From Halobacteriales archaeon SW_5_68_122 (GTDB taxonomy: Archaea; Halobacteriota; Halobacteria; Halobacteriales; Haloarculaceae), in contig PXSL01000023.1 of assembly GCA_003022815.1 (NCBI GenBank), positions 1-7,132 of the forward strand: DNA of 7,132 bases, in the 5' to 3' direction. Under the pieces are notes generated by a model. It did not search any database, was not told the DNA's origin, and saw only the letters and a program-made list of their open reading frames with translations. Of the stretch, positions 1,563 through 6,239 are shown piece after piece (position 1 is the stretch's first letter; every line of letters begins with the position of its first letter). Position numbers and translations under genes: made by a program.

Positions 1563-1736
1563 CCGCGAGGCGGAATCCCGTCGCTGGACGGTCCGGTCGC
1601 ACCGGACGGCCGATGTCGAACCGAGTTACGACTGGACGGGGGCGAGGCGAATCCCACGTCGCTCGTAACCCCATCAGCCCGGATGCCATCGGCCGGTGTG
1701 GTTGGTAAGCATTGGGCCTGCGAACTTCACGTGCTA
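1563..1736. other. Intergenic spacer with no recognisable gene
   Basis: This stretch lies between the promoter of the 1093-1530 gene and the stop codon of the DUF6176-like gene. I see no tRNA, no conserved reading frame and no strong hairpin. Its right-hand part, from about 1690, is the transition from typical G+C-rich DNA to the A+T-richer island. It may hold the left boundary of an insertion, but I could not find a matching repeat at the other side. Confidence 0.4.
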
Positions 1737-2081
1737 CTACGAGTGCTCGGGATTATCCAAGTGATAGAGGAGTTCGTAATCACCGACATTTTCTCCGCTT
1801 TCAAGTACATTGTCCATCATCCGCTTATGTTCTTCATCTATCTCATGGGATGAGTCCGCAAACGATTCGGACACCTGCTTCATGTCGTCCGCTTTCATGT
1901 AATAAACCAGGAAATCGCCCTCGTCTGTATGTTCGATAAACGTTGTTTCCGAGTGCATTCCTTCGCTCTTCAGTGTTTCAATCGCCTCCTCCTCCCTCTC
2001 ACTAACTTCATCCATCCACTCCCTGAGTTGTTGCGTCTCCCCGTTCTCTATTTTCTGCTTCGTCAACACTATGTCGGTCAT
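1737..2081 (-). CDS. DUF6176-like small conserved protein
   Basis: A 114-residue acidic soluble protein that I recognise as resembling the DUF6176 family of haloarchaea and some bacteria; its function is unknown. It begins MTDIVLTKQKIENGE and has a helix LREWMDEV (19-26). A charged helix follows (28-39), then a predicted strand pair (TTFIEHTDEGDFLVYYMKADD, 46-66), a second helix with SHEIDEEHKRMM (78-89), and a short strand ending in YELLYHLDNPEHS. This alternation suggests a ferredoxin-like alpha/beta fold, which is inference. ATG 2081 is chosen because it starts the conserved part. The frame is open to 2273, but that extension runs through the hairpin array and reads as Arg/Ser-rich noise. 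The gene has no cysteine and no membrane segment. Base composition is far from its neighbours: three hand-counted 60-base rows give about 43-45% G+C. This points to acquisition from elsewhere. Confidence 0.82.
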   Translation of the reverse strand: MTDIVLTKQKIENGETQQLREWMDEVSEREEEAIETLKSEGMHSETTFIEHTDEGDFLVYYMKADDMKQVSESFADSSHEIDEEHKRMMDNVLESGENVGDYELLYHLDNPEHS

Positions 2082-2114
2082 ATTGCCGAAGTCGAACGTT
2101 GGAGGATTAGTTCT

Positions 2115-2130
2115 ATTGCTTATATTGAAC
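2115..2130 (-). promoter_or_regulatory. TATA-like promoter box of the DUF6176-like gene
   Basis: On the minus strand the sequence reads GTTCAATATAAGC, about 38-49 bases before the ATG at 2081. That predicts a transcript start near 2097 with a leader of roughly 15 bases. No Shine-Dalgarno sequence precedes the ATG. The same A+T-rich patch reads CTTATATTG on the plus strand and could equally serve a plus-strand transcript into the hairpin array. Confidence 0.5.
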
Positions 2131-2225
2131 GATTCATCAACTGGAACCCAGCATCCGCCGAGCGGGGCGTTCGAAGAACGCCTCCGAGACTGTTCCCGGC
2201 GACGAGGCCGGAAGCCGAGTCGCCG

Positions 2226-2279
2226 TAGCGCGCGCGGACTGGAGGCGACCTGAAGGGTCGCCGGAAGGAGCACGCGCTA
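2226..2279. repeat. Compound (nested) inverted repeat inside the array
   Basis: The outer arms TAGCGCG (2226-2232) and CGCGCTA (2273-2279) are perfect complements and enclose 40 bases. Inside them lies a second perfect hairpin, GGCGACC (2244-2250) with GGTCGCC (2256-2262) around a five-base loop. The result is a stem, internal loop, stem structure. It directly abuts the preceding hairpin, whose right arm ends at 2225. It can form in either strand's RNA or in single-stranded DNA. Confidence 0.6.
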
Positions 2280-2510
2280 TGTTTCACGGCGCCTCCGGCG
2301 CCGTCTGCTCGCGGGCGTACCCGCTCGCATGGTCCGCGGGACCGCCGGTCCCGCTCTATCCAACGTACCGAGGCGGCTTCGCCGTGATCCGAGAGACGCG
2401 GGACGCGTCTCTCGTCATTGCGGGAAATCAAAGATTTCCTGCTTGCAGTCAGAACGCTTCGCGTTCTGACGACATCACGAGGGAGCAAAGCTCTCTTGAA
2501 CGACCTCGCA

Positions 2511-2528
2511 ATTTTTCCCCACGTTTTT
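2511..2528 (+). terminator. Possible T-tract terminator for plus-strand transcription of the array
   Basis: Two runs of five T (2512-2516 and 2524-2528), separated by CCCCACG, follow the last three-base-loop hairpin on the plus strand. Oligo-T tracts are typical archaeal terminators, and T5 runs are rare in this G+C-rich window. The call is inference and depends on the array being transcribed rightward. Confidence 0.35.
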
Positions 2529-2550
2529 GCCGGGGCGCCGCGGACGCCCC

Positions 2551-2570
2551 GTATAAAAAGTGAGTTTTTA
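2551..2570 (-). terminator. Likely terminator of tfs
   Basis: On the minus strand the tfs stop (TAA, 2570-2568) is followed within ten bases by CTTTTTATAC, a T5 run at 2559-2555. The region also forms a small perfect hairpin: A5 at 2555-2559 against T5 at 2565-2569, with a five-base loop. Position just past the stop codon and the T-run fit an archaeal intrinsic terminator. Some transcripts could still read on into the hairpin array. Confidence 0.45.
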
Positions 2571-2894
2571 GTGGTCGTCCTCGCGCCACTTGTGCTCGCA
2601 CTCGGTGCACGTAAAGAAGCGAGTCTCGGACTCGTCGGCCGCCCGAATCTGTTTCATCTCGTAGCGGGCGCGGTCGTGGCCGCACTCGGGGCAGTGGACC
2701 TCCGTCGTCGGGCCGATGTCCTTGTCGTCGACCTCGGACATGTCGACGGGGCCGCTGTCGGTGTCCTGTCCCTGGGTGGTCGTCATCGCCGCCTCCGCCT
2801 CGGCGTCGCGGGCCTTCTCGTAGCCGCAGGAGTCACAGAGCCAGGCCCCGTCGTCCCCGTGCATCATCGAGCCACACTCGTCGCAGAACTCCAT
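2568..2894 (-). CDS. tfs: Transcription factor S (archaeal TFIIS-like RNA cleavage factor)
   Basis: TFS rescues backtracked RNA polymerase by stimulating cleavage of the nascent RNA in the polymerase active site. The 108-residue length is typical. The N-terminal zinc ribbon has C4-x2-C7 and C20-x2-C23, as in RPB9/TFIIS. A poorly conserved acidic linker (about 30-62) leads to the C-terminal zinc ribbon, with C68-x2-C71 and C96-x2-C99. Between the latter two pairs is the catalytic acidic hairpin A-A-D87-E88-S, followed by T-R-F-F-T-C, exactly the TFIIS type. All eight zinc ligands and both catalytic acids are present, so the protein should be active. ATG 2894 gives the complete first zinc ribbon, and a TATA-like box lies about 28 bases upstream. 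The gene is divergent from the transporter at 2963, and its 3' end points into the hairpin array. Confidence 0.95.
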   Translation of the reverse strand: MEFCDECGSMMHGDDGAWLCDSCGYEKARDAEAEAAMTTTQGQDTDSGPVDMSEVDDKDIGPTTEVHCPECGHDRARYEMKQIRAADESETRFFTCTECEHKWREDDH

Positions 2895-4382: not shown

Positions 4383-6239
4383 GTGTACGACATCGAGCGC
4401 TACCTGAACATCCGGAGCGCGTTCGGGGCGTCGTTCGGCCCCGAGGGGACGCTCGCGTTCCGCACCGACACCACCGGGACGCCGCAGGTGTGGACGCTGG
4501 AGGAGCCGGGCGCCTGGCCCGAGCAGCGGACCTTCTACGACGAGCGGGTGACGTTCGCCTCCTGGTCGCCGGAACGGCGCGAGTTGGCCTTCGGGATGGA
4601 CGAGGGCGGCGACGAGCGACAGAAACTGTTCCGACTGGACCCCGATGGAACGGTCCGGACGCTGACGCCGGCCGACGCCAAACACCGGTGGGGCGGCTGG
4701 AGCCACGACGGCGACCGGTTCGCCTTCGCCTCGAACCGCCGCGACGAGTCCGTGTTCGACGTGTACGTCCAGGGCCGCGACGACGAGGACGCCGAGATGC
4801 TGCTCGAGGGGGACGGCTGGCTCTCGCTGGGCGGGTGGAGCCCGAGCGACGACCGACTGCTCGTCCACGAGGCCCGCTCCAGTTTCGACCACGATGTGTA
4901 CGTCCTCGACATCGAAACGGAGACGACGACCCACCTGACCGACCACGACGCGAGCGAGGTCCGGTACAGCAGCCTCTCGTGGGGGCCGGACGGCGAGGGC
5001 GTCTACTGCTGTACGGACCTGGATGCCGACACGCTGTATCTGGCCCGACTTGACGCCGAGGACGGCGCGGCGACGACCGTCGAGGAGGGCGGCGGTGAGC
5101 GCGAGGGAGCGCGAACGTCGTCGGGCGCGTCAGCGTCCGACGGACAGTGGAACCTCGACGGCATCGCGCTAGACGACGGGACGGGCCGGCTGGTCTACTC
5201 GCGGAACGTCGGCGGCTACACCGACCTAACGGTCGGCGAGCTGGCCGGTCCCGAGACCGTCGAGACCTACCCGGACCCGGACTTGCCGGACGGCGTCGCC
5301 GACGGCGTGAGCTTCGACGACGACGCCGAGCGGTTCGCGCTGACGGTCACCGCCGACACCGAGAACACGAACGTGTACGTCGTCGACGTCGAGACGGGCG
5401 CCGCCGAGCGGTGGACCCACGCCGCCACCGCCGGCATTCCGCCGGAGACGTTCGTCGAATCCGAGTCCGTGGCCTACGAGAGCTTCGACGGTCGGGAGAT
5501 ACCCGGCTTCCTCTCGGTGCCCCGCGAAGTGCCCGACGGCGGCGCGCCCGTCGTCGTCGACATCCACGGCGGTCCCGAGAGCCAGCGGCGGCCCTCCTTC
5601 TCGCCGGTCAAGCAGTACCTGCTCGCGCACGGCTACGCCGTCTTCGAGCCGAACGTCCGGGGGTCGACCGGCTACGGGCGGGCGTACACCCACCTCGACG
5701 ACGTGGAGAAGCGGACCGACGCCGTCGCCGACATACGGGCCGCCGTCGAGTGGCTGGCCGACCACGACGCGGTCGACGGCGACCGGGTCGTCGCCAAGGG
5801 CGGCTCCTACGGCGGGTTCATGGTACTTGCGGCGCTCACCGAGTATCCCGAGCTATGGGCGGCCGGCGTCGACATCGTCGGCATCGCCAACTTCGTGACG
5901 TTCCTCGAAAACACCGGCTCGTGGCGCCGCGAGTTGCGCGAGGCCGAGTACGGCTCCCTCGAGGCGGACCGCGAGCTGCTGGAGGACATCTCGCCCATCA
6001 ACGACATCGAGGCCATCGAGGCGCCGCTGTTCGTCCTCCACGGCGCCAACGACCCCCGCGTGCCGGTCGGCGAGGCCGAACAGATAGCCGACCGCGCGGC
6101 CGAGCAGGGCGTCCCCGTCCGCAAGCGAATCTTCGAGGACGAGGGCCACGGCATCACGAAACTGGAGAACCGCATCGAGGCCTACGCCGGGGTCGTCGAG
6201 TTCCTCGACGAGCACGTCCGGGGCGAATCGGACAATTGA
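4383..6239 (+). CDS. S9 family serine peptidase (prolyl oligopeptidase / acylaminoacyl-peptidase type)
   Basis: A 618-residue cytoplasmic serine peptidase; family members cleave short peptides or release N-acylated amino acids. The N-terminal part (about 1-345) is a beta-propeller with repeated S-W-S-x-D/E-blade motifs (for example SWSPE at 60-64, GWSHDGDRF, GWSPSDDRL, SWGPDGEGVY) and the family's DEGGDE segment (73-78). The C-terminal part (about 360-618) is an alpha/beta hydrolase. It has D393-I-H-G-G-P398 before the oxyanion region, EPNVRGSTGYGR, the nucleophile elbow GGS475YGG, D557 in HGANDPRVP and H589 in EDEGHG. The triad is complete. There is no signal peptide. GTG 4383 is chosen for the TATA box about 25 bases upstream and because the protein begins directly with family-like YDIERYLNI. 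An odd low-complexity Gly/Ser/Arg stretch sits at 236-254. Exact substrate specificity cannot be read. Confidence 0.92.
   Translation: MYDIERYLNIRSAFGASFGPEGTLAFRTDTTGTPQVWTLEEPGAWPEQRTFYDERVTFASWSPERRELAFGMDEGGDERQKLFRLDPDGTVRTLTPADAKHRWGGWSHDGDRFAFASNRRDESVFDVYVQGRDDEDAEMLLEGDGWLSLGGWSPSDDRLLVHEARSSFDHDVYVLDIETETTTHLTDHDASEVRYSSLSWGPDGEGVYCCTDLDADTLYLARLDAEDGAATTVEEGGGEREGARTSSGASASDGQWNLDGIALDDGTGRLVYSRNVGGYTDLTVGELAGPETVETYPDPDLPDGVADGVSFDDDAERFALTVTADTENTNVYVVDVETGAAERWTHAATAGIPPETFVESESVAYESFDGREIPGFLSVPREVPDGGAPVVVDIHGGPESQRRPSFSPVKQYLLAHGYAVFEPNVRGSTGYGRAYTHLDDVEKRTDAVADIRAAVEWLADHDAVDGDRVVAKGGSYGGFMVLAALTEYPELWAAGVDIVGIANFVTFLENTGSWRRELREAEYGSLEADRELLEDISPINDIEAIEAPLFVLHGANDPRVPVGEAEQIADRAAEQGVPVRKRIFEDEGHGITKLENRIEAYAGVVEFLDEHVRGESDN

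Follow-up and report, generated by a model that had tools for sequence, protein, structure and literature searches.

Nested two-hairpin repeats downstream of a haloarchaeal transcription factor S gene, probably small non-coding mobile DNA

The window, i.e., the whole stretch of 7,132 nucleotides that was analysed, is haloarchaeal DNA, and its best relatives are Halobacteriales MAGs. The hairpin stretch examined here is intergenic. It lies between the 3' end of the gene for transcription factor S (TFS) and a low-GC gene coding for a DUF6176 protein:

1737..2081, minus strand: DUF6176 protein gene of low GC (Pfam PF19673; GC)
2568..2894, minus strand: TFS gene, TFIIS-type zinc ribbon (Pfam PF01096 and PF02150); its stop codon adjoins the array

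The hairpins are real. Folding of 2140-2567 yielded z = -7.0 for the plus strand and -6.8 for the minus strand, and none of 100 dinucleotide shuffles was as good. In 2166-2551 six hairpins have a perfect stem of 7 or more and a triloop. Shuffling 500 times gave 0.07 such hairpins on average and never more than 2, and outside 2101-2570 the window (6.66 kb) contains two. The initial impression that perfect stems in such density exceed chance is borne out. The preliminary description had counted about a dozen perfect triloop hairpins. This is correct for six, with stems of 7-11; the other five or six hairpins of the fold have loops of 4-7 bases, internal loops or G-T pairs. The six perfect hairpins and examples of the imperfect ones are:

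2166-2182: perfect triloop hairpin
2197-2225: imperfect hairpin
2244-2262: imperfect hairpin
2286-2304: perfect triloop hairpin
2336-2354: perfect triloop hairpin
2390-2414: perfect triloop hairpin
2423-2439: perfect triloop hairpin
2448-2470: perfect triloop hairpin
2478-2498: imperfect hairpin
2530-2551: imperfect hairpin

Further, the array is not homogeneous. Structure is strong in 2278-2506, referred to as the insert, where DNA folding gave z = -6.9 (0 of 200 shuffles as good), with z = -6.3 for the four-hairpin cassette by itself. It is much weaker in the older left part, 2150-2277 (z = -2.5; 2 of 200 shuffles as good).

The array is a mosaic. L007 and L009, the two closest syntenic relatives, carry at the same place beside the TFS gene sequences which are 84-87% identical to window 2121-2277 and 2507 onward, and there the two pieces abut:

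2121..2277, unstranded: older host sequence, left; intergenic hairpin region downstream of TFS, about 157 bp, matching the corresponding place at 87% identity in L009 and 85% in L007
2278..2506, unstranded: 229-bp insert, made up of nested hairpin units; lacking in L007 and L009, where the flanking pieces abut
2286..2304, unstranded: hairpin ACGGCGCC-TCC-GGCGCCGT, common to the paralogous copy L132, the loop being different there
2304..2359, plus strand, boundaries good to a few bases: two-hairpin 'class II' unit ctgctc[CGGGC..]tcgcatggtcc[GCGGGACC..], absent from L132 at this place
2384..2504, plus strand: four-hairpin cassette GTGATC..AACGAC, 121 bp; match of covariance model R1 at 2383-2508 with 138.7 bits, the window itself being among the sequences used to build R1; 14-copy alignment A1
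2390..2414, plus strand: cassette hairpin S1, core, 11 bp, loop GGA
2419..2472, plus strand: nested 'class I' unit of two hairpins, S2 and S3, which is situated within the core linker TCAT^CA and does not occur in the core of L132 with its two hairpins; S2/S3 pairing and covariation
2478..2498, plus strand: cassette hairpin S4, core, loop AAA, with G-T pairs
2507..2567, unstranded: older host sequence, right; T-rich tract and hairpin 3' of TFS, 61 bp, aligned with L007, L009 and L132

Judged from these alignments, an insertion in the lineage of the window appears to be a simpler reading of 2278-2506 than a precise loss in the relatives. The host element of the window has a paralogous copy, L132, beside another gene of the genome G007, and this copy bears a two-hairpin core cassette. 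Compared to L132 the window has two additional units. One, located between GGCGCCG and TCCAACG, is the class II pair of about 2304-2359; the other is the class I pair of 2419-2472, with CAT on both sides (2416-2418 and 2473-2475). Thus, three states are seen in real loci: a host without core (L007, L009), a host with core (L132), and a core with additional units (the window).

Two side observations concern the host sequence. The right part reads CACTTTTTA..hairpin..AAAAACGTGGGG on the minus strand, and a recurring 3'-end element, CCCACTTTTT-hairpin-AAAAACGTGGGG, is located at window 2507-2567 and in L119, L124 and L132, often after the stop codon of a gene; it is perhaps a two-way terminator. 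Window 1723-2120 and the corresponding flanks of L007 and L009 beside TFS are mutually unalignable despite the conserved older part of the array; this flank is a spot of gene turnover.

The alignment A1 consists of the window and 13 BLAST-found copies which were chosen for the four-hairpin form, five-hairpin copies and partial matches having been left out. In these 14 dispersed copies 99.5% of the cells pair, and 7 pairs with 23 cells display two-sided changes; when the structures were slid by 1-3 columns the number of two-sided changes was zero. This agrees with the earlier supposition that it is the pairing which is maintained rather than the sequence. Among 500 shuffles, which related sequences can exceed even without structure, two-sided cells and the covariation score were reached by 0, two-sided pairs by 4 and the measure of further pair types by 347. 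Better evidence for pairing than these shuffle counts comes from the slid control and from compensatory swaps, e.g., GTCAGAACGC/GCGTTCTGAC to GTCAGATTCC/GGAATCTGAC. The stem of S4 is nearly invariant across the 14 copies and its loop is represented by 8 different triplets. It was misleading, in turn, to designate the arms as unrelated to each other: the hairpins are drawn from a recurring vocabulary of units.

The vocabulary has a grammar. More copies were brought in with R1, and the hairpins were marked in 40 loci picked from its listed matches. Most of these follow the plan GTSGTT-[hairpin]-TCAT..-[hairpins]-..TCA-[hairpin]-AACGAC; exceptions are degenerate or have other plans (e.g., L187, L205, L213). 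In the simplest cassette TCATCA or TGATCA connects one hairpin to the other, as in L207-L209 and in several loci of the type-B host repeat introduced below. Longer cassettes have extra, usually paired, hairpins within this linker. The extra linker units, with class names coined here, are:

class I: [GCGGGAAATC][GTCAGAACGC]
class II: ctgctc[ACGGGCGGC]..[CGTGGGACC]
class III: [CGAGGGAAC][GCGGGACC]
others

Units similar to the class II unit of the window reside in the cassette linkers of L193, L196, L200 and L215, as well as in IS605-type right ends (L082, L083). Of 67 cassettes delimited automatically, 36 have both strict ends, GTSGTYCG and CGRRCGAY; the others are truncated, degenerate or spurious. 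In L085 (Haloarcula rara) a long run of hairpin units is seen at about 1100-1630 inside an inverted repeat, CCAGCTAAAC..GTTTAGCTGG.

Such elements are widespread. A DNA search with 2272-2512 produced matches in 35 of 48 genomes or records (E <= 1e-3), and the left and right halves were found independently of each other. A draw of 59 genomes from the class of G009 contains 43 with R1 matches at E <= 1e-6. In a draw of 60 genomes from the phylum 7 match, each of them already among the 59. The remaining 53 lack matches and constitute a loose control because their base composition probably differs; which of them belong to the class was not given. Stricter filters applied to the class search and the phylum search alike. 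R1 matches at E <= 0.01 occur in 26 of 27 genomes or records, with 89 in G007, 79 in G009 and 68 in G017. These numbers are not copy counts because a palindromic hit is counted once on each strand; moreover, E-values are approximate, just some of the first-look candidates were scored, and many low-scoring hits are looser arrays. The Haloquadratum genomes G037 and G043 have weak R1 matches only; L250, from G043, is a clear two-hairpin core cassette. A plasmid search returned 3 records at E <= 1e-5. The 100 plasmid records at E <= 10, 35 of them from Rhizobium, were discarded as mostly short chance matches. No match to the array was obtained in a phage search, and a 17-base pattern searched in viral_contigs was located at 2 places, both in cassette-free sequence.

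Empty and filled sites can be compared directly. The locus L115 of G009 contains a four-hairpin cassette and other hairpins which are missing from the orthologous place in G007, with flanks that are 94-95% identical. In the second of the two G007/G009 ortholog pairs examined, L124 (G007) and its G009 ortholog, the flanks are 97% identical and the whole intergenic array is replaced by unrelated sequence; by its alignment this pair is to be read as turnover, not as clean insertion. The host of the cassette in L115 is a MITE-like repeat, termed type B, with inverted ends TGTTCAGATAAGC..CTTATCTGAACA and many copies in G007. Twenty further type-B loci were fetched by match to the host repeat, 19 from G007 and 1 from G001. 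At one internal site, slot 2, some of these are empty and others have two-hairpin cassettes; in other type-B loci slot 2 has four or five hairpins. A script run over 84 loci, which missed some slot-2 loci visible by eye, reported 27 sites, 11 empty (..GCG|CAGCGAG) and 16 filled by 58-170 bp. The empty GCG|CAGCGAG compared to the filled G|TSGTT..RACGA|C reveals no target duplication there. By eye, the type-B repeat (L228-L247, L114-L127) has three internal places with variable hairpin units.

Type B is not the sole host; host repeats of several kinds carry cassettes. An IS605-type right-end motif, AAAGCCCC..GTAGTTTAC, is matched by 4 sequences among the loci examined. A class II unit sits in two of these ends (L082, L083) and a class I-like unit in a third (L095), and the same position is empty in L184. 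Three unit-bearing ends out of four is not a rate because L082, L083 and L095 were fetched for matching the window. The end in L082 follows a gene annotated as TnpB; the other three were named from the motif alone. As a side observation, two-hairpin units are visible by eye at the 3' end of a TnpB-like coding region in L248 (G099) and L251 (G037, Haloquadratum J07HQW2). The 3' end of a TnpB gene is the expected location of the TnpB guide RNA. The idea that insertion always takes place inside host palindromes was dropped: in this weak test a flank stem of at least 8 was present in 13 of 66 flank pairs (66 of the 67 cassettes, one dropped for short flanks) compared to 11.3% of mismatched pairs.

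Is the element active as DNA or as RNA? RNA usually prefers tetraloops, and in GNA DNA minihairpins a C-G closing pair matters for stability. Among the 67 automatically delimited cassettes, which include some spurious or truncated ones (e.g., L010, L045, L069), 196 of 211 perfect hairpins have triloops although loops of 2-5 were allowed; 195 of the 196 triloops are closed by C-G, and 106 are GNA or TNC. The control hairpins (stem at least 7, elsewhere in 80 TFS loci) have C-G closure in 118 of 236 and GNA or TNC in 33 of 236. The 36 strict-end cassettes have triloops in 121 of 125 hairpins, all 121 closed by C-G and 68 of them GNA or TNC. A linker-anchored sample, for which 140 of 919 pattern matches were kept (at least 75% Watson-Crick pairs) and the loop was set to 3 or 4 by length, comprises 138 hairpins of odd length (loop 3) and 2 of even length, with GNA or TNC in 78 of 138. 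Due to shared ancestry the loop and closure counts are not independent. C-G-closed triloops, over half of them GNA or TNC, suggest folded DNA rather than RNA. GNA triloops form unusually stable DNA minihairpins (Yoshizawa et al., 1997, in the form in which PMC6479982 cites it). The loop counts thus favour the view that the cassettes function as folded single-stranded DNA.

A structured multi-hairpin non-coding RNA or 3' UTR element, conserved for its RNA fold, would be in line with the compensatory changes and with the consistent four-hairpin fold and its GTC/GAC closing helix. Features read from the sequence near the host element, namely oligo-T tracts and a TATA-like stretch, might point in the same direction. 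The 1344 pairs of the linker-anchored sample (1300 Watson-Crick, 21 G-T, 13 A-C, 10 other) contain more G-T pairs than A-C mismatches, although not clearly so: as a measure of strand-specific RNA selection, 21 versus 13 gives no clear signal and has little power. On the other hand, an Rfam scan of the whole window left the array without a match (a single sub-threshold match, at 5846-6022, is outside the array), triloops dominate in spite of the tetraloop preference of RNA, and cassettes are present or absent at comparable sites of related genomes and in several kinds of host repeat. In sum, there is little positive evidence here for a multi-hairpin RNA, and we consider it an unlikely explanation.

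Which enzyme might move such DNA? The Y1 transposase domain PF01797 was searched in 28 genomes and detected in 19; no mobilising enzyme emerged from this search. The domain was undetected in G001, G002, G006, G009, G019, G026, G033, G038 and G045; each of these nine genomes has between 2 and 79 R1 matches at E <= 0.01. G026 is the genome of L037, the chromosome of Salinarchaeum laminariae R26, an isolate. Because PF01797 is undetected in nine cassette-bearing genomes, a TnpA of the IS200/IS605 type seems not to be required now; some of the negative genomes are MAGs and may be incomplete, and movement by it may have occurred in the past. As mobiliser the Y1 transposase was accordingly set aside, the genomes in which it is undetected including cassette-rich ones. 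An IS605 end or a PATE as the whole answer was also rejected: the left unit resembled a TnpB right end, but it appears as a unit within such ends.

These data bear on the possibility that the cassettes are PATE-like non-autonomous relatives of IS200/IS605 moved on single-stranded DNA by a Y1 (HUH) enzyme, or REP/BIME sequences moved by a RAYT. The hairpins and the single-strand logic would fit, units do reside in IS605-type right ends, in one case next to a gene annotated as TnpB, a Y1 transposase is present in the 19 genomes, and PATEs are on record in haloarchaea in the available text of PMC3119063. However, Y1_Tnp went undetected in the cassette-rich G009 and in the isolate chromosome G026, the cassettes end in inverted repeats, the absence of which is part of the definition of PATEs, and the units sit within IS605-type right ends and are not those ends. 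This explanation, too, has a low probability in our judgement.

A further proposal had been template switching during replication at short imperfect palindromes, which would perfect stems locally without any mobile unit. The stems are indeed far more perfect than a fold needs (99.5% of the cells paired) and the loops vary, as in the 8 triplets among 14 copies of S4. Yet unrelated loci and genomes share the same units and linkers, and at defined sites these are missing. Local template switching alone is insufficient because a local foldback cannot create shared linkers, and as the entire explanation it is very improbable. It may act on top of mobility and keep the stems perfect.

Taken together, the array is probably a nest of small non-coding mobile repeats in a hairpin-bearing intergenic region downstream of TFS. 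Of the three options originally offered, a mobile palindromic element, perhaps proceeding via single-stranded DNA, fits best, on the basis of dispersed copies, empty sites, nesting and DNA-type triloops; template switching alone does not hold up, and neither does RNA find much in its favour. Presence and absence would then reflect insertion rather than precise loss, events which are indistinguishable at any single locus. The basic unit would measure about 58-70 bp: a cassette in which a TCATCA or TGATCA linker connects two hairpins and whose ends, GTSGTT..RACGAC, are nearly inverted repeats of each other. Particular sites within host repeats would receive cassettes, and the linker between existing hairpins would receive further two-hairpin units, so that arrays would grow from inside. 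When a cassette becomes single-stranded during replication, repair or transfer, its hairpins would fold; a hairpin-reading enzyme would cut at the hairpin base and join the unit at the junction of two hairpins or at a host site. Cutting of hairpin tips followed by repair, or template switching, may keep the stems perfect while the loops vary.

Probably, then, the units act as folded single-stranded DNA, are recognised by their hairpins and are moved in trans by a putative enzyme. We infer that the cassettes are active as DNA and that there is an enzyme dedicated to them. More tentatively, and with less than even confidence, we propose that this is an undescribed kind of mobile DNA: two-hairpin units recognised as folded single-stranded DNA, inserted precisely between adjacent hairpins, forming Russian-doll arrays across Halobacteria and served in trans by a non-Y1 enzyme. 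Many natural cassettes are available for a comparison of stems, loops and insertion sites, and cassettes may explain part of the puzzling intergenic hairpin DNA in haloarchaeal genomes.

How do the cassettes relate to known systems? Bacterial REP/BIME sequences with their RAYT are dispersed intergenic hairpins combined with linkers. The cassettes are likewise dispersed intergenic hairpins with linkers; they differ by their nested growth, and several cassette-rich genomes are without a detected Y1 (a Y1-type RAYT in the same genomes was undetected in 9 of 28, G009 and G026 included, some of the nine being MAGs). A likeness to MITEs is confined to the type-B host repeat with its inverted ends; the cassettes are much shorter, multi-hairpin and have other ends. 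The cassette ends GTT..AAC alone brought integron attC arrays, with their IntI integrase and attC core sites, into consideration. Within the accessible portions of the openly licensed literature, no other paper found names the multi-hairpin grammar, which is no proof of absence; in the main text of a survey of REPs (PMC12306157), words that start with 'Halo' are absent.

PATEs and small mobile repeats were defined in Haloquadratum by Dyall-Smith et al. (2011; PMC3119063, on the text of which, as far as available, the following comparison is based). PATEs, like the cassettes, are small, transposase-free and palindrome-rich haloarchaeal repeats. They lack terminal inverted repeats and share their ends with IS605-type transposons (PMC3119063), whereas the cassettes have inverted ends and lie within the ends of IS605-type transposons.

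The nearest known kind is SMR-A (HqIRS42, HqIRS43 and HqIRS55 of Haloquadratum walsbyi), a comparison made by description only, not by sequence. SMR-A repeats measure about 110 bp, which is too short for a transposase gene, have inverted ends unrelated to those of known transposons, lack a target duplication and prefer as insertion sites the near-terminal palindromes of PATEs and IS605-type transposons (PMC3119063). The cassettes similarly are short and non-coding (121 bp in the window, 58-170 bp in slot 2). They, too, have many copies, inverted ends, units within IS605-type right ends and an unexplained mobiliser. There is no obvious target duplication at slot 2; the class I unit of the window, however, is flanked by CAT/CAT. 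Further, a Haloquadratum genome (G043, L250) carries a two-hairpin core cassette. The multi-hairpin architecture, the triloop rule and the nesting in linkers are features of the cassettes which the available description of SMR-A does not contain. It is plausible that the cassettes represent a wider family of the SMR-A sort. The mobilisation of SMR-A was called 'enigmatic' in 2011 (PMC3119063); the cassettes add a clear grammar, defined empty sites and a sharp loop rule, and thereby it becomes testable which enzyme reads the hairpins and whether it acts on single-stranded DNA.
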